A DNA stretch of 40,263 nucleotides from Opitutaceae bacterium (GTDB lineage: Bacteria; Verrucomicrobiota; Verrucomicrobiia; Opitutales; Opitutaceae): positions 1 through 40,263 of the forward strand of contig JANYCF010000230.1 of the NCBI GenBank assembly GCA_025360455.1, written 5' to 3'. The notes beneath the pieces were generated by a model. The model was not told the DNA's origin, did no database searches, and was given only the letters and a program-made list of their open reading frames with translations. This document shows, in pieces, positions 2,863-18,531 of the stretch. The position numbers and the translations under genes are program-made. Within the stretch, counting starts at the first letter, position 1. The number at the start of each line of letters is the position of its first letter.

Positions 2863-5800
2863 TCACTCCTTTGCTGTACGCAGCGCTCGGATTGTGGCTG
2901 CGGTGTTGGGCGTGAATGGGGTCTTGAGTGCAGCGAGGCCTTCGACCAGGTCGCGGATTTCCGCCTTGGTCAGTACCAAGGCGGCGATCTCGGGCATGGC
3001 GGAAGGTGCGGAGACGATGCTCTTGATGTCAGCTTGCGGAATCTCGGTCACGTCGGATTCGCCCGAGCGCAGCCGCACCAATTTATCGTCGCGGTAAGCG
3101 AGGGTGCCGACGATGGCTTCGCCGTTTTTCTTGGTGATCGTGACGATTTCAAACCCGGCGGCAATTTTCGCGCTGGGCTTGATGATGGATTCCAAAATGT
3201 ATTCGCGCGTAGCACGGGCACCGATGCCTCCGAGATTCGGGCCAGCCTCGCCGCCGGCAAACTCACCGACGCTATGGCAGCGCATACATTGCATCACGGG
3301 ATGACTCATGAAGGTTTTCCTGCTTGCCTCGGCATTGCCGCCTTCAAGACAAATCCGAAAAGCAGCGAGTGGATCGGGATCTTTGGCGAGAGCGGCGTCG
3401 CGACCGGCCAAGGCTTGCTTGATGCGTGGATTGGTACGGAGAGCCGCGGCATCGAGCAATTCGAGTTGGGCGCTCGGGGCTATTTTACCGGTGGCGAGCA
3501 GAGAGAGCTGAGCGAGCAAAATGGCGTCAGCGGCGGAGTCTTTGGATTCCCCGAGGGATTGGAAAACAGCGCGTTGTTCCAGCGCCGTGCCGTGGTCGAG
3601 CAGCTTGGTCAAAGTGGTGATCGCTGATTCAGGATGGAGCCGGCTGGAGAGAGGGAGAGCGGCGAGACGTAGCTCCGGGGCTTCGGCGGCGAGTGCGATT
3701 CCCACTGCTGAGGATAATTGCGGATCGGCCAGCTTATCCAAAGTAGTGAGGGCGGCGATGCGCACTGCGGCTGAGGCGCTGTTATTCGCGATGACGGTTT
3801 GAAGGGCGGGCGAGGCAGCGGATATTTTTAAGGAGTTTATCGCAGTGATCGTGGCGGCTTGGACGGATTCCGGGGTGGAGCCAGACATCAATGCGCTGAT
3901 TTGAGGAACAAGAGCTTGGATCGCGACTGCTGCCGGGCGGGATTTCTCGGCGAGAGGACGGTAAATGCCGACCAAACGGTCGCGAGCGGGCGGTGCCGGC
4001 CACAGGGCCAACAGCGTGAGCGCTTCTTTGCGCAGGGCTTCAGGTGCGGCGGTATTTGCGGCGTAAGCGGCGAGGGCGGCGGCATTTTCTGGAGTGCCGA
4101 GACGGAAGTGAACATTGAGTACGCGCAACATAATCGGCGCATCAGTGAGAGGCTGGGTGATGAGGGCCGCGAGCGCGGAATAACTGGCGACGATAGGCGC
4201 GTCGTTGATGGCTTCGGCTGTTTCGCGTACGATGAGCGGATCGGTATCGGTCAGGAATTTCGCGATCTCGGCGCTGCCTTGTCGACGCAGTGCGAGCACG
4301 GCAGCGAGGCGTACGGAGCGAGACTCATCTTTGGTGGTGGTGGCGAGTTGCTCAGACGTGGCGCAGCCAACAAGGCCCATGACGAGGGCGTGGCGAAGGT
4401 AGGGGTCGGTGTCGTTGTTGGTGCGGATCGCGGTGAGGAGGGCGGGAGTGGCGGCGGCGATTTTTAGTTTACCGAGCGATTGAGCCGCGAAGAATTTCAC
4501 GCGAGGTGCCGGGTCGTTCAAGGCGGCGAGGAGGGCTTCGGCCGAGTTGGCATCGTGGTGGTCGCCGAGTTGTTTGGCGGCTTGGGCACGGACTTCGTCA
4601 TCGGTTGATTTCAACAACGGGCGAATAGCTTCAATGGTGGCGGGATTTCTTTCGGTCAACTGGCCGAGCCCCCAGACCGCGTGGCGACGGGCGAGAGTGA
4701 AGACATCTTTATCCTGAGAGGAGAGAATTTGGTTAAATGCTTTGATACCGTCAGCCCCGCGTTCAGCGAGGGCGGATTGGGCGTCGAGACGGACGCGCCA
4801 ATCGGCGTGAGCGAGGAGCGCGACAAGTTCCTTGTCAGTTTTCTTCGTGTAGTCCGAGGCGATGAGCTGTTGGGTTTCCTTGATGAGCGGATCGTTCGCA
4901 AACTTCGGATCTGAAATCGCGTAGATGCGGCCTTTGCGGGACTTCGGCCAGCCTTCGGCCCAGTCGGAATAGTAGAGGCGGCCATCGGGGGCGAAGCGGA
5001 CGTCGGTGGGGAGAGCGTTCGTTAAGAAGGGGGCGGCATCTTCGATTGCATAGGTAGCACCGGCGGGCTTCACTTTGTAGCGGTAGATGCCGGAGCGGGT
5101 GATAGAGCCTTTGAAGTGGGTGATGAAAATATTGCCGACATACGCGGGCGTTAGGCCGGTGCCGGGATAGTACGCGATGCCGGACGGGCCGTCCTCAATA
5201 TTGCAGATCGGTGGGAGCAGGTATGCGGGCTGCTGCTTGTGACGTGGCAGCCAAAGTTTCTCGGCGTTCCATGGGCCGGCGTTGCCTTGCGGGGCATGTT
5301 GGTAACCGACGCGCCAACCGCTGTCACCGTTTTCGACGATGTGCACGAGGCGTTCTTCGTCGCCTTGATCGCTGTCGTTGTCGCCGGTGAAAAGATCGCC
5401 GTATTCATTAAACAAGAGCGACTCGGGATTGCGCAGGCCGGTGGCGAAGAGTTCGAGGTGGGAGCCGTCGGGGAAGCAGCGGAACACGGAGCCGGTGTCC
5501 GGGGTTTCGATCATCGTGCCTTCCTTGGTGGCGACGCTGGCACCGCGATCACCGATGCTGAAGTAGATGCGGCCATCCGGTCCGAAAATCAGGCCGTGGA
5601 AATCGTGGCCGGTGAAACTGAAGCGTACGCCGAAGCCTTGGAACAGTTCGGTGCGGGTCTCGGCCTTGTCCCGGCCGGTGAATTTCCAGAGCGACGGGAT
5701 ATTGGTGAACCAGACCTCGCCGTGGCGGGCCATCACGCCGGAGGCGATCCCGTCGAGCGGGGTGCGGAAGTTGTCGGCATAGACGCTGGATTTGTCGGCC

Positions 5801-6416: not shown

Positions 6417-6474
6417 GTAGCGCAGGCTTCCAGCCTGCTTTCCCTGCACAGAGCAGGCAGGATGCCTGCGCTAC
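6417..6474. repeat. Palindromic repeat, GTAGCGCAGGC family
   Basis: Inverted repeat with outer arms GTAGCGCAGGC and GCCTGCGCTAC and an inner pair around CAGCCTGC/GCAGGCAGG. Copies of the same family are at 13227-13283, 16116-16170 and 20406-20447. It lies in the 265-base gap upstream of the PVC dehydrogenase gene and downstream of the DUF3999 gene. Confidence 0.85.
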
Positions 6475-12248: not shown

Positions 12249-13226
12249 ATGAGTCTCACGGTTTGGGCCAACCACGAGCTTCGTCCCGCTGCGCGCGAAT
12301 TGTTTTATGACAGTCTTGCGCGCCTCGGCTGCCGCATTATCCAATCTGACCAATCGTCGCGTTCTGTCCTCACTGAGGGCGGGTTGGATCCGGCGTTGGC
12401 GGAAGCGGACATTGCTTACGGGCAACCCGATCCGGTGGACCTGATCCGTTATCCGCGGCTGCGTTGGGTGGCGCTGTCGACGGCGGGTTATACGCGCTAT
12501 GATAATGATGAGTTTCGTGCGGCGATGCGCGCCCGAGGCACGGTGGTGACGAACGCGTCGCAGGTGTTCGCGAATCCTTGTGCGGAACATGTGCTGGCGA
12601 TGATGCTGGCGTTTAACCGCGAGTTGCCCAAATACGTTTTGAATCAGGTGGGCGCGCACGGTTGGGAATATTTGCCTGATCGCTACAGCAAGGATTTGCT
12701 CACGGGCAAAACAGTGGTGATGTTGGGCTATGGCGCGATTGGCCGGCGGTTGACGGAATTACTCGCGCCCTTCCATTGCCGATTGATCGGGGTGCGGCGG
12801 GCGCCGAAGGGGAATGAGGGGATTGAAATCGTGGGGGAGTCCGAACTGCCGAGCATGCTGCCCCTAGCGCAGCATGTGGTGAATCTGCTGCCGGATTCCC
12901 GTTCGACGCGGAATTTTTGCAATGCGCGGTTCTTTGCGAACATGGCGCAGGGCGCGTGTTTTTATAATGTCGGACGGGGAGTCACGGTTGATCAAATCGC
13001 TTTGCTTGCGGCGTTGCAGAGCGGACAGGTGGGCGGAGCATATCTCGATGCGCTCGATCCGGAGCCGTTGCCGCCGGAGCACCCGTTATGGCGTGAACCC
13101 CGCTGTCAGATTACGCCGCATGTGGCTGGCGGCCATCGCGAACAGGATGAGAATCTCGTGCGCCACTTCCTCGCCAATCTGGGAAAATTTATTCAGGCGG
13201 AGCCGTTGGTTGACCGGATTTTTTAG
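12249..13226 (+). CDS. D-2-hydroxyacid dehydrogenase, NAD-binding
   Basis: Cytoplasmic oxidoreductase of 325 residues in the D-isomer-specific 2-hydroxyacid dehydrogenase family, interconverting a 2-keto acid and a D-2-hydroxy acid with NAD(P)H. The Rossmann motif GYGAIG is at residues 160-165. The catalytic triad of the family is present: Arg243 (NVGRG), Glu272 (LDPEPLP) and His291 (TPHVAG). The substrate cannot be deduced. Start: ATG at 12249 begins at the first beta-strand; an in-frame ATG at 12204 would add 15 residues, and neither has a Shine-Dalgarno sequence. The gene is divergent from the DUF2339 gene. A palindromic repeat begins immediately after its stop codon, and the TAG itself may have been supplied by the element. 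Confidence 0.88.
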   Translation: MSLTVWANHELRPAARELFYDSLARLGCRIIQSDQSSRSVLTEGGLDPALAEADIAYGQPDPVDLIRYPRLRWVALSTAGYTRYDNDEFRAAMRARGTVVTNASQVFANPCAEHVLAMMLAFNRELPKYVLNQVGAHGWEYLPDRYSKDLLTGKTVVMLGYGAIGRRLTELLAPFHCRLIGVRRAPKGNEGIEIVGESELPSMLPLAQHVVNLLPDSRSTRNFCNARFFANMAQGACFYNVGRGVTVDQIALLAALQSGQVGGAYLDALDPEPLPPEHPLWREPRCQITPHVAGGHREQDENLVRHFLANLGKFIQAEPLVDRIF

Positions 13227-13283
13227 GAGCGCAGGCTTTCAGTCTGCATACCTCCGAAGCAGGCTGGAAGCCTGCGCTGCTCT
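13227..13283. repeat. Palindromic repeat, GTAGCGCAGGC family, abutting a stop codon
   Basis: Inverted repeat with arms GAGCGCAGGCTTTCAGTCTGC and GCAGGCTGGAAGCCTGCGCTGC. It starts at the base after the TAG of the dehydrogenase gene. The other copies start with GTAGCGCAGG, so the stop codon overlaps the expected element boundary. The remaining sequence to 13515 holds the promoter region of the bufferin operon; no -35/-10 pair was recognised with confidence. Confidence 0.8.
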
Positions 13284-13515: not shown

Positions 13516-13860
13516 ATGAATAAATCCACCCGTACAATCCTCATGGCCGCCGCTATTGCCGGCCTTTATGCCGGTTCCCTCGCTGTCAAAGCCATGGCTA
13601 CCGAAGCCGGTAGCACTGCTCCTGCTGGCGAAAAAGCCAAGGACGCCTGCAAAGGCAAAGATGGCTGCAAGAGCAAAGATGGCTGCAAAGGCAAAGACAC
13701 CTGCAAGAGCGCCGATGGCAAAGACACCTGTCACGCCAAGGACGGCTGCAAGGGCAAGGACACCTGCAAGAGCGCCGATGGTAAGGACACCTGCCATGCC
13801 AAAGACGGTTGCAAGGGCAAGGATGGCTGCAAGGCCGCAGAACCAGCACCAGCCAAGTAA
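13516..13860 (+). CDS. Cys-rich bufferin-like RiPP precursor
   Basis: Small exported precursor of 114 residues. It has an N-terminal signal peptide (residues about 1-29, MNKSTRT then ILMAAAIAGLYAGSLAV, cleavage probably after AMA), a short spacer, and a Lys/Asp/Gly-rich domain with ten cysteines, almost all as KDGC or KDTC followed by Lys or His. A 63-base unit encoding GKDTCKSADGKDTCHAKDGCK is repeated twice in tandem (13690-13752, 13753-13815). Placed just before a DUF692 enzyme and a DUF2063 protein, it matches the precursor position of bufferin/HvfA-type operons, whose cysteines are modified by the iron enzyme and which bind or buffer metals such as copper. The modification is inferred. 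ATG at 13516 precedes the signal peptide directly. Confidence 0.8.
   Translation: MNKSTRTILMAAAIAGLYAGSLAVKAMATEAGSTAPAGEKAKDACKGKDGCKSKDGCKGKDTCKSADGKDTCHAKDGCKGKDTCKSADGKDTCHAKDGCKGKDGCKAAEPAPAK
13690..13815 (+). repeat. Tandem 63-base repeat inside the Cys-rich precursor gene
   Basis: Two adjacent 63-base units, 13690-13752 and 13753-13815. They encode the identical 21-residue peptide but differ only at synonymous third positions. Each carries four cysteines. Shorter KDGCK units precede and follow. Confidence 0.9.
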
Positions 13861-13910
13861 TTTTATCGCGGTGTTCGATTCCATGGGGAGTTGACCCACG
13901 TGAATTTCGC

Positions 13911-13946
13911 GGAGGCCGGGCCGACTGGTCCGGCCTCCTTTGTTTT
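13911..13946 (+). terminator. Rho-independent terminator or attenuator after the precursor gene
   Basis: Perfect nine-base stem GGAGGCCGG / CCGGCCTCC with an intervening loop at 13920-13929, followed by TTTGTTTT. It lies 50 bases after the precursor stop and 90 before the DUF692 start. It would make the precursor transcript more abundant than the modifying genes. Confidence 0.8.
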
Positions 13947-13966
13947 CCGATGCTTGGTTTGGTGTT

Positions 13967-13988
13967 GTGGGAGCAAGCTCGCTCGCAC
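13967..13988. repeat. Short palindrome GTGGGAGCAAGCTCGC
   Basis: Imperfect inverted repeat GTGGGAGC...GCTCGCAC between the terminator and the DUF692 gene. It is the same family as the in-gene palindrome at 11837-11866. Confidence 0.65.
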
Positions 13989-14037
13989 AAATACACCGAC
14001 AGACTTTGGTTGATCAATCGCCTTACTTTTTCTCTTC

Positions 14038-14928
14038 ATGCCTGCCAACGCGTTTAACGGTTACACGGATTATGGAATCGGTCTGGGCCTGCGGGTACCG
14101 CACTACGACCATATCCTTTCGGAAAAACCGACGGTGGATTGGTTCGAGATCATCTCGGAGACTTTCATGGTCGAGGGCGGACGGCCCTTGGAGGTGCTGG
14201 ATCGGATTCTGGCGCAGTATCGCGTCGTCCAGCACGGGGTTTCACTTTATTTCGGCTCGGCGGATGCGCCGGATCGGGCCCATTTAAAAAAGATCAAGGC
14301 GCTCACCAAGCGCACGAAGACGCCTTGGCTCACCGATCACCTGTGTTGGGGTAGCGTGGATGGCACTTTTTCCCACGACCTTTTGCCCATGCCGTACACG
14401 CATGCGGCGGCCAAGCATACGGCGGCAAAAATCCGGATGGTGCGGGATTTTCTGGAGCTGCCCATCGCCGTGGAAAATGTGAGCTCCTACACGGAGTATC
14501 ATGTCTCCGAGATGACCGAGTGGGAATTTCTTGCCGAGGTGGTCGAGCAGGCGGACTGCGGCATTCTGCTCGATGTGAACAATATTTATGTTTCCTCGAA
14601 GAATCATTCCTTCGATCCGTACGACTACTTGAACGGCGTGCCGGCCCACCGCGTCGCGCAAATCCATATTGCCGGGCACACCAAGTTCGAAAAATATCTC
14701 CTCGATACGCATGATCATCCGGTGCTCGATCCGGTGTGGAAGCTTTATGCCGAAACCATCCGCAAGTGCGGGGTGACCGCGACGCTGCTGGAATGGGACG
14801 ATAAGATTCCGTCCTTTCAAGAGGTCCACGACGAGGCGCTCAAAGCCAACGAATTCATCGCGCAAGCGCGGGAAGCGCAGGGGGCGCAAAACAAGAATCG
14901 TGTGGGCGGGGTGCCCTCACCCCGCTAA
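14038..14928 (+). CDS. bufB: DUF692 multinuclear iron-dependent oxidase (MNIO), BufB/HvfB-like
   Basis: Cytoplasmic TIM-barrel enzyme of 296 residues that modifies cysteines of RiPP precursors (MbnB, TglH, HvfB and BufB are characterised relatives). Candidate iron ligands are all visible: His22 (GLRVPHY), Glu37, His66 (QHGVSL), Asp100-His101 (TDHLCW), Glu146 (VENVSS), Asp179 and Asn181 (LLDVNNIYVSS), His190, His210 and His214 (IHIAGH), Asp223/His225/His227 (DTHDHP), Glu252 and Asp254 (LEWDDKIPS). It sits between the Cys-rich precursor and the DUF2063 partner. The start ATG has no Shine-Dalgarno sequence. The last residues, NRVGGVPSPR and the stop, lie inside a composite palindrome (14900-15130) and are probably element-derived. 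Family call firm; the exact cysteine product is unknown. Confidence 0.92.
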   Translation: MPANAFNGYTDYGIGLGLRVPHYDHILSEKPTVDWFEIISETFMVEGGRPLEVLDRILAQYRVVQHGVSLYFGSADAPDRAHLKKIKALTKRTKTPWLTDHLCWGSVDGTFSHDLLPMPYTHAAAKHTAAKIRMVRDFLELPIAVENVSSYTEYHVSEMTEWEFLAEVVEQADCGILLDVNNIYVSSKNHSFDPYDYLNGVPAHRVAQIHIAGHTKFEKYLLDTHDHPVLDPVWKLYAETIRKCGVTATLLEWDDKIPSFQEVHDEALKANEFIAQAREAQGAQNKNRVGGVPSPR

Positions 14929-15130
14929 GCTGTAACCATAGAGTTGAAATGAACTTCTCCGCACAGAATACATGCGCTGAAAGGTGGAACCCGGCCTCCG
15001 GCCGGGTTGGTTTGGCGCACGCTTTAGGAAACCCGTCCAGAGGCCGGGTTCCACCCCGTTCAACTGTATGGATACGGCTAAGGATGGACCGCGCGAATCT
15101 AAACTCGCGGCGTGGGGGAACCCCGCCCAC
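14900..15130. repeat. Composite nested palindrome between DUF692 and DUF2063 genes
   Basis: Outer arms are GTGGGCGGGGT (about 14902-14912) and ACCCCGCCCAC (15119-15129), with further partial pairing of GCTAAGC...CCATAGAGTTGAA against GTTCAACTGTATGG...GGCTAAG. Nested inside is a complete AGGTGGAACCCGG-family repeat at 14982-15056. The left outer arm overlaps the 3' end of the DUF692 gene. This fills the whole gap before the DUF2063 gene. Confidence 0.8.
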
Positions 15131-15147
15131 AAAAACTGGCTCACTTC

Positions 15148-16095
15148 ATGGCGATTAAAAAGAAAAACTCCGCGAGTACGAAAGCCCACCCGGCTCCCGT
15201 TCGCGTCGATTCGACCCGCGATCTGGCTGATTTGCAGCGTTCCGTCTGGCAGTTGATTTCGCGACCGCTGGCACCCGGCAACCGCATGCAAAAACGCGCG
15301 GCCGACGGACGCGCCACCAGCACAGTGGTGGGTGAGATTATCAAACCCAATGACCGGCTCACTTCCTTTGAGCGGCTCGAAATCTACAATCGCATGTATT
15401 GGTTTCGCGTGCTCGACAGTCTCTACGAGGATTGCCCCGGTTTGCGCGCCGTGCTCGGGGATAAACAATTTATGCGGCTCATCGAGGCGTACATGATCAA
15501 GTATCCTTCGCGTTCGTTTACGCTGCGGAATTTGCCGGACCGGTTGGCGCAGTTTATTAAAGAGGAGCCGCGTTGGACCCGGCCGCACGCCAAGCTTTGC
15601 TACGATCTGGCGCGCTTCGAGTGGGCGCAAATTGAAGTGTACGACGGCGCCGCGCTGCCGCTGTTCACGATCGACGACTTGCTCGATGCGAATCCCGAAA
15701 AATTACGCCTCAGTCTGCAACCGTATCTCCAATTGTTGGAAGTCGGCTACCCGGTGGATGATTATCTGATCACCATCAAGAAACGCGCAGCCCTGTTGCG
15801 CGGTGATGCGAGCAATGCGCCTACGGGCGTTTCGAAGAGTCGGCGCAGCCGGGTGGCCCGCCCCAAGCCGGGACGACGGCAAATCGCGGTGCACCGTTTT
15901 GGCGGGATCATTTATTTCAAGCGACTGGAGCCAGCCGCCTGCAAAGTTCTCCTCGCGATCCAGGCCGGCCAACCGCTCGCCCAAGCCTTGGCCACGGGTT
16001 TGCCGCGTTCGAACCAAGGCCGCGAAGCTTGGGCGATCAAAGTGCAAGGGTGGTTTAAAAATTGGATGGAGCTCGGCTGGTTTTGTCGGAGGTGA
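15148..16095 (+). CDS. bufC: DUF2063 / BufC-like partner of the MNIO
   Basis: Cytoplasmic protein of 315 residues that matches the DUF2063 (HvfC/BufC N-terminal) family. Characterised relatives act with the MNIO, probably by holding the precursor leader through an RRE-like fold. The helical N-terminal domain reads LADLQRSVWQLISRPL...ERLEIYNRMYWFRVLDSLYEDCPGLRAVLG, then FMRLIEAYMIKYPSRSFTLRNLPDRLAQFI, the family core. The C-terminal part contains a basic spacer (SKSRRSRVARPKPGRRQ) and a winged-helix-like end (ACKVLLAIQAGQPLAQAL...GWFKNWMELGWF). ATG at 15148 was chosen; an in-frame start at 15112 would translate the palindrome. It lies directly after bufB in the same direction. Confidence 0.85.
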   Translation: MAIKKKNSASTKAHPAPVRVDSTRDLADLQRSVWQLISRPLAPGNRMQKRAADGRATSTVVGEIIKPNDRLTSFERLEIYNRMYWFRVLDSLYEDCPGLRAVLGDKQFMRLIEAYMIKYPSRSFTLRNLPDRLAQFIKEEPRWTRPHAKLCYDLARFEWAQIEVYDGAALPLFTIDDLLDANPEKLRLSLQPYLQLLEVGYPVDDYLITIKKRAALLRGDASNAPTGVSKSRRSRVARPKPGRRQIAVHRFGGIIYFKRLEPAACKVLLAIQAGQPLAQALATGLPRSNQGREAWAIKVQGWFKNWMELGWFCRR

Positions 16096-16115
16096 TGTGG
16101 TAACATGGAAACAGC

Positions 16116-16170
16116 GTAGCGCGGGCATCCTGCCTGCCGACTGACGATGCAGGCTGGAAGCCTGCGCTAC
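16116..16170. repeat. Palindromic repeat, GTAGCGCAGGC family
   Basis: Inverted repeat with outer arms GTAGCGCGGGC and GCCTGCGCTAC and inner CATCCTGCCTGC / GCAGGCTGGAAG. It lies between the DUF2063 and DoxX genes of the bufferin operon. Confidence 0.85.
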
Positions 16171-16265
16171 TTTCCGACCTCTACGACGAAACACTATCGC
16201 ACAACTGCGTTGGAATATTACTACTCCATCATACTCTCACTTTCACTTCACCAATTAATCCCTCC

Positions 16266-16727
16266 ATGAATCCACGCTCACTCCTCGCCAAGTTCGATAC
16301 TGTCGCCTCGTTTTTCCAATCTCCGCTCCTGCTGGTGATCCGTTTGTATTGGGGGATTTCATTCGCCCAGACCGGTTGGGGCAAGCTGACGCATCTCGAC
16401 CGCACCGCCGGATACTTCGAGTCGTTGCACATTCCGCTGCCCAAGCTCAACGCCATCATGGCCGGCTCGACCGAGTGTCTGGGTGGAGCGTTGCTCGCCC
16501 TCGGGCTATTTGCGCGGCCGGCTTCGCTTCCGCTCATCGGTACGATGGCGGTCGCTTATTGGACGGCAGATCGCGAAGCGGTGATGGCGATCACGAGTGA
16601 TCCGGAGAAATTTGTCACCGCCACCCCGTTTCTGTTTTTGCTGGCTTCACTGCTTGTCCTCGTTTTCGGCCCGGGCAAGCTGTCGCTGGATGCGTTATTT
16701 TTTCGGAAAACGGCATCCGGCAAATGA
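16266..16727 (+). CDS. DoxX family membrane protein, BufD-like
   Basis: Small inner-membrane protein of 153 residues with about four hydrophobic helices (LLLVIRLYWGISFAQTGWGKL; AGSTECLGGALLALGLFA; LPLIGTMAVAYWTA; FLFLLASLLVLVFGPG) and the DoxX signature RLYWGISFAQTGWGKL near residue 26. DoxX proteins regularly accompany DUF692 and DUF2063 genes, as BufD/HvfD. Their role is not settled; a link to redox or transport of the modified product is possible. It is followed 19 bases later by the exported DUF255 gene, so the two are probably cotranscribed. Confidence 0.88.
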   Translation: MNPRSLLAKFDTVASFFQSPLLLVIRLYWGISFAQTGWGKLTHLDRTAGYFESLHIPLPKLNAIMAGSTECLGGALLALGLFARPASLPLIGTMAVAYWTADREAVMAITSDPEKFVTATPFLFLLASLLVLVFGPGKLSLDALFFRKTASGK

Positions 16728-16746
16728 TCGGCGGCGTAGTAGCGAT

Positions 16747-18531
16747 ATGATTCTAGCGCGGCTTCTGTTTTGTTTCATCTTCTTGGCCGTTGGCCGCGTC
16801 TCGGCTGCGACGGCCGAGATTACGGCTGCGATCATCTGGCAACCTTGGTCGGACGAAGTCTTCGCGCAGGCGAAGCGCGAAAACAAATTTGTCCTGCTCG
16901 ATCTGGAGGCGGTGTGGTGCCATTGGTGCCATGTGATGGAGGCGACCACTTATCGCGACCCGGCGGTGGTGGCCCTGCTGGGTGAACGCTATCTGACGGT
17001 GCGCGTGGATCAGGATTCGCGCCCCGATCTGGCGAGCCGGTACGAAGACTATGGCTGGCCGGCGACCGTCATTTATGCGCCCGACGGCACGGAGATCGTG
17101 AAAAAACAAGGCTACGTCCCGCCGACGGGCATGCGTCGACTGCTCCAGGCCGTGATCGATGATCCTTCGCCCGTCGCCACGCAAAATATCGGCCCGGATC
17201 GCGCGGCCACGGGTGAAACGGTATTGAGCCTCGAACACCGGAACCAGTTGCGCCGGCAATGGCTCGCCGGTTACGACGACCAGCAAGGCGGCTGGGGCTT
17301 CAGCCACAAATTTCTCGATGCCGATACCCTTGAGTTCGCGTTGCATGAAGCGGCGCGCGGTGACTCTCGCGTGGAGCAGATGGCGCGCGATACGTTCCGG
17401 CTCCAGCGCAAGATTCTCGATCCGGTCTGGGGTGGAGTTTACCAGTACTCTGCCGGTGGCACGTGGGATGAGCCGCATTTTGAAAAAATCATTTCCATCC
17501 AAGCCGATAATCTGCGCGCCTGTGCTTTGGCCGCCGTGCAATGGGGCGATCCTGTTTATCTTGAAACCGCCCGCGCCATTCACGGCTACCTGAAAAAATT
17601 TCTCACCAGCCCGGAGGGCGTCTCTTACGCCAGCCAGGATGTCGACCTCGTGCCCGGAGAGCACAGTGCGGATTATTTCTTACTCGATGATGCCGGTCGT
17701 CGCGCCCGCGGGGTGCCGCGTATTGATCCGCACTGCTATGCCCGGGAAAATGGTTGGTTCATCAGTGCGCTGGTTCAACTTGCGGCGGTGACGGGCGAGG
17801 CCGCTGATCGCAGCGAGGCCGAGCGTGCCGCCCACTGGGTGATCGAACATCGTGGTCTGGGCGAAGGAGGTTTTCGCCACGATGAACACGATACGGCAGG
17901 CCCGTACCTCGGCGACACCTTGGCTATGGGCCGCGCGTTTCTCGCGTTGCACCAGCTGACGCAGAATCCGGCGTGGCTCGCCCGTGCGGAAGCGGCGGCA
18001 AAATTTATCGAGACGCATTTTCGCCGGGTCGATACGGCGGGTTATACGGCCAGCGACGCGACGAAGAATAGTTTTCCCGGGCCGCGTCCGCAATTCGACG
18101 AAAATGTGAATCTCGTGCGTTTCGCCACGGGGCTGGCGCAGGTGACCGGGCAGGCAGAATGGCGGGCCATGGCGGGGCATGGTTTGCGTTGGTTGCTGGC
18201 TCCGGGGGTGACGGATAATCGCGGCTTCTATGTGGGCGGCTTATTGCTCGCCGAGGAGGAAGCGCGCACCGAGCCGGTTCATATCATGATTTTGGGCGGC
18301 AAGGACGATGAGGTGGCGCAGGCGATGTTCGCGACGGCGTTGCGGCTGCCGATCCAGCACAAACTCGTGGAGTGGTGGGACCGGCGCGAAGGCCCGCCTC
18401 CGCGCGGCGAGGCCATTTTCCCCGAGCTCGACCATGCGGCCGCGTTTCTTTGCGCCAACGGTGCCTGTTCGTCACCGCTGCTCAGTGTGGTGGCGCTGGA
18501 GAAACGGCTGGGTCGGCTCAACCGGCCATGA
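16747..18531 (+). CDS. Exported DUF255 thioredoxin-fold protein, YyaL-like
   Basis: Protein of 594 residues with a signal peptide (MILARLLFCFIFLAVGRVSA), a thioredoxin-like DUF255 domain (WQPWSDEVFAQAKRENKFVLLDLEAVWCHWCHVMEA, redox-type C58-x-x-C61, cis-Pro region YGWPATVIY), and a long alpha-helical hairpin domain (from WLAGYDDQQGGWGFSHKFLD through DENVNLVRFATGL) as in YyaL/SPATA20 proteins. Family members are mostly cytoplasmic and somewhat longer (about 680 residues); this one is exported and compact. It is the last gene of the bufferin operon, 19 bases after doxX, suggesting periplasmic thiol-disulfide handling of the Cys-rich product (inference). Its 3' end overlaps the convergent gene by 14 bases. 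Confidence 0.85.
   Translation: MILARLLFCFIFLAVGRVSAATAEITAAIIWQPWSDEVFAQAKRENKFVLLDLEAVWCHWCHVMEATTYRDPAVVALLGERYLTVRVDQDSRPDLASRYEDYGWPATVIYAPDGTEIVKKQGYVPPTGMRRLLQAVIDDPSPVATQNIGPDRAATGETVLSLEHRNQLRRQWLAGYDDQQGGWGFSHKFLDADTLEFALHEAARGDSRVEQMARDTFRLQRKILDPVWGGVYQYSAGGTWDEPHFEKIISIQADNLRACALAAVQWGDPVYLETARAIHGYLKKFLTSPEGVSYASQDVDLVPGEHSADYFLLDDAGRRARGVPRIDPHCYARENGWFISALVQLAAVTGEAADRSEAERAAHWVIEHRGLGEGGFRHDEHDTAGPYLGDTLAMGRAFLALHQLTQNPAWLARAEAAAKFIETHFRRVDTAGYTASDATKNSFPGPRPQFDENVNLVRFATGLAQVTGQAEWRAMAGHGLRWLLAPGVTDNRGFYVGGLLLAEEEARTEPVHIMILGGKDDEVAQAMFATALRLPIQHKLVEWWDRREGPPPRGEAIFPELDHAAAFLCANGACSSPLLSVVALEKRLGRLNRP

Follow-up and report, generated by a model that had tools for sequence, protein, structure and literature searches.

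Gene cluster and family assignments

The 40,263-nucleotide contig JANYCF010000230.1 of an Opitutaceae bacterium (Verrucomicrobiota), referred to below in its whole length as the window, carries five open reading frames on the forward strand within positions 13516-18531. They encode the precursor of a ribosomally synthesized and post-translationally modified peptide (RiPP), an MNIO enzyme, its DUF2063 partner, a DoxX membrane protein and an exported protein of the DUF255 family. These families, the common strand and the spacing of 19 bases between doxX and the DUF255 gene had been given in an earlier reading made from the sequence alone, and all were confirmed by calculation from the open reading frames and Pfam scores. 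The gaps among the first four genes are larger (177, 219 and 170 bases). The five genes are as follows.

13516..13860, + strand: RiPP precursor P0001 (114 amino acids, Sec-type N-terminal signal region, 10 Cys; putative diverged BufA2-type)
14038..14928, + strand: BufB-type MNIO P0002 (296 amino acids; PF05114, 349.6 bits)
15148..16095, + strand: BufC/HvfC-like DUF2063 partner P0003 (PF09836, 49.2 bits, cut-off 27.2)
16266..16727, + strand: HvfX-like DoxX membrane protein P0004 (PF07681, 81.8 bits, cut-off 23.6)
16747..18531, + strand: short DUF255 protein P0005, predicted to be exported (594 amino acids; PF03190, 91.9 bits, cut-off 27)

The window MNIO scores 337 bits against the MNIO_BufB model NF050167, above its cut-off of 310, whereas its score against the HvfB-type model NF003818 (249.5 bits) lies below the cut-off of 360. 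The DUF2063 protein and DoxX are likewise below the cut-offs of the HvfC model NF050145 (43.2 bits, cut-off 142) and the HvfX model NF050144 (65 bits, cut-off 80). The window thus combines a BufB-type MNIO, a DUF2063 (PME type 1) partner and an adjoining Cys-rich precursor with a Sec signal, the set of features by which bufferin (captophorin) clusters are recognized; signal peptides of the window proteins were judged by eye and hydropathy, not by a dedicated predictor. No other PF05114 match than the window MNIO itself was found in the source genome, which is 92.9% complete. Among relatives, the precursor, MNIO and DUF2063 genes are adjacent and doxX mostly lies with them, and this retained grouping argues that the arrangement in the window is not due to chance. 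The bufferin-type identity proposed for the first four genes is therefore upheld by an MNIO above the BufB cut-off and by the matching order with DUF2063 and DoxX, and the cluster almost certainly belongs to the bufferins/captophorins, within the BufA2 (Cys-Lys) lineage.

In the precursor, eight of the ten Cys precede Lys and two precede His, in KDxCK/H-like repeats, and the coding DNA is itself repetitive, with units of 18 and 63 bases, the latter present in 2.4 copies. Precursors found at the same place in relatives score 83.3 bits (Bradyrhizobium, L124), 46.1 and 47.3 bits (Verrucomicrobiota, L035 and L039), 35.8 bits (Granulicella, L085) and 20.2 bits (a species of the same genus, L057) against the BufA2 model NF050166 (cut-off 60). 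The Cys-rich exported precursor of the earlier reading appears BufA2-like (Cys-Lys) by descent, but not by model score, which is only 14.3 bits. Its N-terminal region is common to the precursors upstream of MNIO in relatives, and its identity to those of two other species of the genus is 62% and 67% (L050, L051). We read it as a BufA2-type protein whose six-Cys domain appears to have been replaced or overgrown by Cys-Lys repeats. Comparable repeats precede MNIO in Melainabacteria and one further bacterium (L183, L186, L188, L191) and in the Blastocatellia locus L170. The window MNIO carries Asp at a position that is Phe in the solved Histophilus protein, within a stretch where the alignment scores weakly. 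According to passages of PMC13097082, a Phe-to-Asp change marks the Cys-Lys MNIO group, and the window Asp would correspond to this published substrate site.

Sequence and fold of the DUF255 protein

P0005 consists of a signal region, a thioredoxin domain with CHWC at residues 58-61 (in a WCHWCH context), an (alpha/alpha)6 barrel and a C-terminal pair, C569-x4-C574. In its AlphaFold2 model (pLDDT 91.5, pTM 0.91) the thioredoxin domain is fused to the barrel, as in the DUF255/Thioredox_DsbH architecture. Among solved structures the top match is an uncharacterised DUF255 protein, 7tkv (Z 38.8, root-mean-square deviation 2.9 over 511 residues, 22% identity). The DsbH disulfide reductase model NF043050 gives 19.8 bits with a cut-off of 190, so that P0005 is not a DsbH by this model. 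All 61 alignment rows that extend this far conserve C569, C574, S575 and P577.

Export of the DUF255 protein is predicted from its N-terminus. A simple hydropathy rule detected a signal-like hydrophobic N-terminus in 73 of the 79 relatives to which it was applied, the 80th being left out of the count because it has no readable CxxC region; the six that fail comprise one truncated at a contig end, three with scores slightly too low and two whose start codon does not satisfy the rule. The nearest relatives of known origin belong to Opitutaceae and other Verrucomicrobiota. In the source genome, P0005 matches only itself at E 1e-20 (three of 12 candidates scored), and a plasmid search returned 12 records, one of which, from Bradyrhizobium, covers more than 80% of the query at 37% identity.

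Linkage of DUF255 genes to MNIO loci

Neighbourhoods were calculated in two samples. A draw of 387 Verrucomicrobiota genomes contained 34 MNIO places above the cut-off, and all 33 outside the window were fetched. In addition, named genomes were scanned with the patterns A[VG]WCHWC and YEDYGWP, and the best 80 of at least 560 confirmed relatives were kept with flanks of up to 8 kb; 22 loci with less than 4 kb on one side are termed short contigs below. The best 80 belong to Verrucomicrobiota, Acidobacteriota, Pseudomonadota, Planctomycetota, Melainabacteria, Bdellovibrionota and others.

Confinement of the DUF255 gene to the MNIO cluster of a single genome, which would have refuted the sequence-only reading, was not observed. 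It occurs in 6 of the 34 Verrucomicrobiota MNIO loci (the window, L039, L045, L046, L052 and L057), and an MNIO gene lies within the fetched flanks of 24 of the best 80 relatives; these 24 span five phyla (Verrucomicrobiota, Acidobacteriota, Pseudomonadota, Planctomycetota and Bdellovibrionota). In a seventh Verrucomicrobiota genome (G169), an intact doxX-DUF255 pair is located about 27 kb from MNIO. Two further loci have doxX beside DUF255 with no MNIO in reach, namely L128 and L075, the latter with DUF2063 at a contig end. Overall, the closest recognised gene preceding DUF255 is doxX in 15 of the best 80 relatives, in the window and in five further relatives.

The gene order differs among lineages. 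Verrucomicrobiota have precursor-MNIO-DUF2063-doxX-DUF255, whereas the order is precursor-MNIO-DUF2063-DUF255 in Granulicella and a Planctomycetota genome, doxX-DUF255-precursor(s)-MNIO-DUF2063 in Bradyrhizobium, DUF255-precursor-MNIO-DUF2063-doxX in two Acidobacteriota and DUF255-precursor-MNIO-DUF2063 in Methylobacterium, with a divergent arrangement in L112. The expectation that a signal-bearing DUF255 protein follows DoxX therefore holds for five of the six linked Verrucomicrobiota loci (in L052 the gene comes after DUF2063), but not throughout, since in other loci the gene follows DUF2063 or precedes the precursor. As a strict rule it was rejected by the other gene orders among the best 80.

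On a quick tree of 86 sequences, in which 25 of the 83 inner branches are open, the linked label requires 14 changes, as compared with 24.9 in shuffles, none of which, out of 500, reached so low a number. Well-supported branches force at least 11 changes, and 11 are required if short contigs are excluded and rows with doxX only count as linked. The linkage between DUF255 and MNIO is thus clustered on the tree, yet it has been gained or lost many times.

Genome-wide co-occurrence of DUF255 and MNIO

Co-occurrence, also established by calculation, extends beyond the linked loci. Among the best 80 relatives, 74 of 77 tested genomes (all but L075, L107 and L132) carry an MNIO somewhere. All 32 genomes with a clearly unlinked DUF255 locus have MNIO elsewhere, as do 17 of the 20 tested genomes with short-contig loci and the genome of L128. 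The MNIO loci of unlinked genomes include EGKCG precursors (L173, L189) and other Cys-Lys repeat precursors; on these grounds, the idea that DUF255 is tied solely to precursors of the BufA2 type was rejected.

Three taxonomic draws gave the same picture, with MNIO present in all 23 genomes that have a short DUF255 gene. In the Verrucomicrobiota draw, MNIO was found in 7 of 7 such genomes (at least 49% identity to P0005) versus 28 of 380 others; in the Acidobacteriota draw, in 11 of 11 versus 56 of 236; and in the draw from the Bradyrhizobium order, in 5 of 5 versus 107 of 194. The centres of the draws (G000, G388 and G390) were known beforehand to hold both genes, and without them the counts are 6 of 6, 10 of 10 and 4 of 4. 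One genome of the third draw (G444) is that of L143 in the best 80, and further overlaps between the draws and the best 80 are possible. MNIO was counted at E 1e-3, which admits matches below the family cut-off in two of the 35 genomes from Verrucomicrobiota and one of the 67 from Acidobacteriota, and the P0005 searches of the draws scored the best few candidates per genome.

The matches of P0005 in Acidobacteriota split into near-full-length proteins with 48-53% identity (E to 3e-170) and YyaL-like proteins from E 2e-41. The latter type served as a control in the Verrucomicrobiota and Acidobacteriota draws. In Verrucomicrobiota it shows no association with MNIO, which occurs in 4 of 54 genomes with YyaL only and in 24 of 326 with neither protein.

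Possible role of the DUF255 protein and alternatives

A functional tie between the DUF255 protein and the MNIO product is, in our judgement, highly probable. For the window, the MNIO chemistry, copper binding and Sec export of the precursor are taken over from published relatives, in which, according to passages of PMC12452194 and PMC13097082, MNIO and its DUF2063 partner convert Cys to heterocycles and the peptides are exported by Sec and bind copper. By analogy, the precursor would be made in the cytoplasm, its Cys would be converted by the MNIO and the DUF2063 protein, probably to 5-thiooxazoles, and the modified product would leave via Sec. We propose that the exported DUF255 protein acts outside the cytoplasm as a thiol-disulfide oxidoreductase dedicated to this peptide, keeping its thiol-bearing heterocycles and spare Cys reduced and metal-competent, with the alpha/alpha barrel as the putative substrate-binding part. 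A modified fontiphorin fragment with free thiols aggregates, for which its authors hypothesise disulfides (PMC13097082, in part). An exported CxxC protein that nearly always occurs with MNIO, together with free-thiol peptides that aggregate, fits the task of keeping thiols reduced; the exported peptide would then be the substrate and reduction the reaction. We give the account as a whole, that is, a bufferin cluster with an exported oxidoreductase that maintains its peptide, about even chances, and the assignment as a reductase, taken as such, is tentative.

Several observations weigh against this account. In G181, of the same genus as the window, the DUF255 gene is cleanly missing at the matching doxX site, up to the hairpin that lies downstream of the gene in G169; the coordinates of this difference between two sister species are L073:9800-9860 (gene absent) and L064:6080-8020. 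Three DUF255 genomes have no MNIO, namely G428 (2.7 Mb), G433 (2.0 Mb) and G434 (6.1 Mb); our guess is that the assemblies of G428 and G433 are incomplete. The short DUF255 gene is found in few MNIO genomes (7 of 35 in Verrucomicrobiota, 11 of 67 in Acidobacteriota and 5 of 112 in the Bradyrhizobium order), so that it is a dispensable accessory, and in the last order MNIO is widespread in any case (112 of 199 genomes). In Acidobacteriota, MNIO was found in 47 of 158 genomes with YyaL only versus 9 of 78 with neither (P 0.002, by Fisher tests that ignore kinship), so that part of the association may reflect clade or genome size. Two YyaL-type proteins (L066, L067) also start with a signal-like stretch, so export is not special to the short branch. 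The invariance of the WCHWC and GWP motifs in 63 rows is partly circular, since both were search patterns. No conserved Cys was found in the DoxX proteins of DUF255-linked loci when relatives were compared, and accordingly no obvious electron supply is encoded; DoxX as a membrane thiol relay, a MauE/MauD-like idea prompted by a sub-threshold MauE match, was rejected on the same ground. Finally, the literature searched (titles, abstracts and selected passages) gave no function for any DUF255 protein.

Among the alternatives, metal handling survives best: the CHWCH motif would bind Cu(I) or another soft metal and load or unload the peptide without redox turnover. The two Cys and two His of CHWCH and the second Cys pair near the C-terminus could serve this purpose, and the copper binding of related peptides (PMC12452194, in part) and a cupredoxin-like neighbour family in 8 of the 80 loci point the same way. 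We nevertheless regard it as unlikely, because redox chemistry is the default function of a thioredoxin-type Cys-x-x-Cys with its cis-Pro loop, and CHWC is also present in the YyaL-type proteins L066 and L067, a type that has no MNIO link in Verrucomicrobiota. The neighbour in question is an exported cupredoxin-like protein (L123:14168-14836 and seven others) that also occurs near DUF255 without MNIO nearby; its sole scanned member, from L123, has matches below the Pfam cut-offs.

Somewhat less likely still is an oxidase or isomerase that forms or rearranges disulfides of the peptide after its export. A thioredoxin fold with CxxC is compatible with such activity, and Buf1 has one structural disulfide from its first to its last Cys (PMC12452194, in part), but the precursor of the window consists of low-complexity repeats, in which ten Cys of similar setting offer no obvious way of pairing. 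Equally unlikely in our view is that catalysis resides in the (alpha/alpha)6 barrel, with a sugar or peptide moiety of the product as its substrate and the thioredoxin domain as an auxiliary. The barrel alone superposes on sugar 2-epimerases with Z of about 30, and H378 and D390 are invariant in all 63 rows; the identity to the listed epimerases is, however, about 8-16%, and a common fold does not show function. That the DUF255 protein is a general envelope protein whose gene merely lies near MNIO in some lineages is very improbable, since the 32 of 80 loci without MNIO in flanks of at least 4 kb on both sides, and the weak YyaL-MNIO association in Acidobacteriota, are set against MNIO elsewhere in all 32 of those genomes and a linkage repeated in different gene orders.

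Intergenic elements and transcription

The following elements lie within and upstream of the cluster.

13225..13281, no strand assigned: REP-like palindrome upstream of the precursor (palindrome/repeat search)
13911..13938, + strand: terminator-like hairpin in the precursor-MNIO gap (12 pairs, 10 of them G-C, T-rich tail; consensus match only)
14983..15055, no strand assigned: palindromic repeat in the MNIO-DUF2063 gap (palindrome search)
16151..16168, + strand: REP-like repeat unit in the DUF2063-doxX gap (exact-copy search)

The scan that identified the hairpin gave 10 terminator-like sites, as compared with a shuffle mean of 7.1 (standard deviation 3.0). The REP-like element AGGCTGGAAGCCTGCGCT has four exact copies in the window (at 6419, 13261, 16151 and 20408) and 32 genome-wide, whereas its reversed control has none. 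Repeat elements thus occupy two of the three larger gaps in the cluster and one site upstream of it. In relatives, MNIO and DUF2063 mostly overlap or nearly touch, while the precursor-MNIO and DUF2063-doxX gaps reach about 270 and 220 bases, respectively, so that only the MNIO-DUF2063 gap of the window is unusual. The term operon, applied to these five co-directional genes in the sequence-only reading, is provisional; one transcript across the cluster is possible, and a terminator-like hairpin follows the precursor. If this hairpin is a terminator, it would give more precursor than enzyme.

Other companion genes

A second companion, an exported protein that combines HExxH with a Glu farther downstream, occurs in 15 of the 24 MNIO-linked DUF255 loci, as well as in L095 and in the MNIO loci L158 and L163; its frame is split in two in L125. 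Representatives, identified by alignment and modelling, include the following.

L089:4553-5539, L123:9734-10648, L124:13401-14390 and others: exported HExxH (M1/M61-like) protein

The model of this protein (pLDDT 90.3) resembles M61 and M1 aminopeptidases in fold. No Pfam match was found for the L089 and L095 proteins, no NCBIfam match over the cut-off for L089 and L124, and no PDB sequence match for L089. The gene was found in G257 but in none of nine genomes that were tested from the family of the window. In G433, where no MNIO was found, DUF255 adjoins the HExxH gene. From its modelled fold, the protein is a candidate protease for bufferin processing; a passage of the fontiphorin paper leaves unclear whether the EGKCG product is cut further (PMC13097082).

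Other neighbours were found by single-linkage clustering, which mixes antisense frames and was used to find candidates, with single members of few clusters scanned. A creatininase-family gene follows DUF2063 in L125 (12609-13394) and, by clustering, in six other Bradyrhizobium loci. MftE is the peptidase of mycofactocin, another RiPP system. The L125 protein, the only one scanned, gives 167 bits with PF02633 and 87.5 bits, below the cut-off, with the MftE model. Genes for ECF sigma factors directly follow doxX in three Verrucomicrobiota loci with BufA2-like precursors (L031:5774-6313, L033:5535-6095 and L035:4109-4747; only the L035 precursor was scored, with 46.1 of 60 bits). Passages of the landscape paper (PMC12452194) report sigma genes in Buf1, not in Buf2, clusters. 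A DUF547 gene is located near unlinked short DUF255 genes in L118 (9867-10796; the only one scanned) and 12 other loci, mostly from Melainabacteria. On the Planctomycetota contig L150, DUF255 is accompanied by an AhpC/TSA gene (462-1169) and by an exported open reading frame that is very rich in Cys (3163-3576).

Bufferins and their kin form a large family of bacterial metal-binding peptides, and the secreted DUF255 protein and the secreted peptidase are named candidates for steps that follow their export. In general terms, we tentatively suggest, at somewhat less than even confidence, that the short exported DUF255 protein serves outside the cytoplasm, in at least five phyla, as an enzyme dedicated to the maturation or maintenance of MNIO-made thiooxazole peptides, acting with DoxX in some clusters and, in many lineages, beside an exported M1/M61-like peptidase that trims the peptide and has likewise gone unrecognised. 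If true, this would provide a biological setting for one DUF255 branch and a periplasmic half of the pathway, outside the published four-gene core.

Comparison with described systems

In the literature searched, no paper ties a DUF255 or thioredoxin gene to MNIO clusters, in agreement with the earlier reading, which did not recognise the fifth gene from described operons. The main text of the landscape paper (PMC12452194) makes no mention of thioredoxin, DUF255 or Verrucomicrob; according to its passages on gene context, unrelated genes were counted only at 10 bases or less from a core gene, and extras occur in extremely low proportions. The distance between doxX and DUF255 is 19 bases in the window, as compared with this limit, and the DUF255 gene is nearer in other loci. 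Six-Cys MNIO clusters are the subject of an Antarctic soil paper whose text mentions neither thioredoxin nor DoxX, and the fontiphorin preprint mentions neither thioredoxin nor DUF255; passages of the fontiphorin paper allow that further copper-binding factors may be missing from its tests (PMC13097082). Our results suggest that the short DUF255 protein is an accessory of MNIO clusters outside the published four-gene core.

P0005 shares its two-domain fold, CHWC and likely export with the YyaL/SPATA20/Thioredox_DsbH proteins (solved 7tkv). It is shorter, with 594 residues, whereas two YyaL-type frames read 733 and 750, and its branch is set apart by the wide score gap and by co-occurrence with MNIO. 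A plain YyaL identity was rejected by length and score gap, not by export. The HvfABCD/HvfX and fontiphorin (EGKCG, Lys-Cys) clusters have the four core families in common with the window, in which, however, the precursor is of the Cys-Lys and not the EGKCG type, and the MNIO fits BufB better than HvfB. The Buf2-type bufferin cluster (BufA2-BufB2-BufC2-DoxX, a captophorin) shares with the window an exported Cys-Lys precursor, a BufB-level MNIO, DUF2063, DoxX and the gene order; the window differs from it by a repeat-expanded precursor that falls under the BufA2 cut-off and by the additional, probably exported DUF255 protein.

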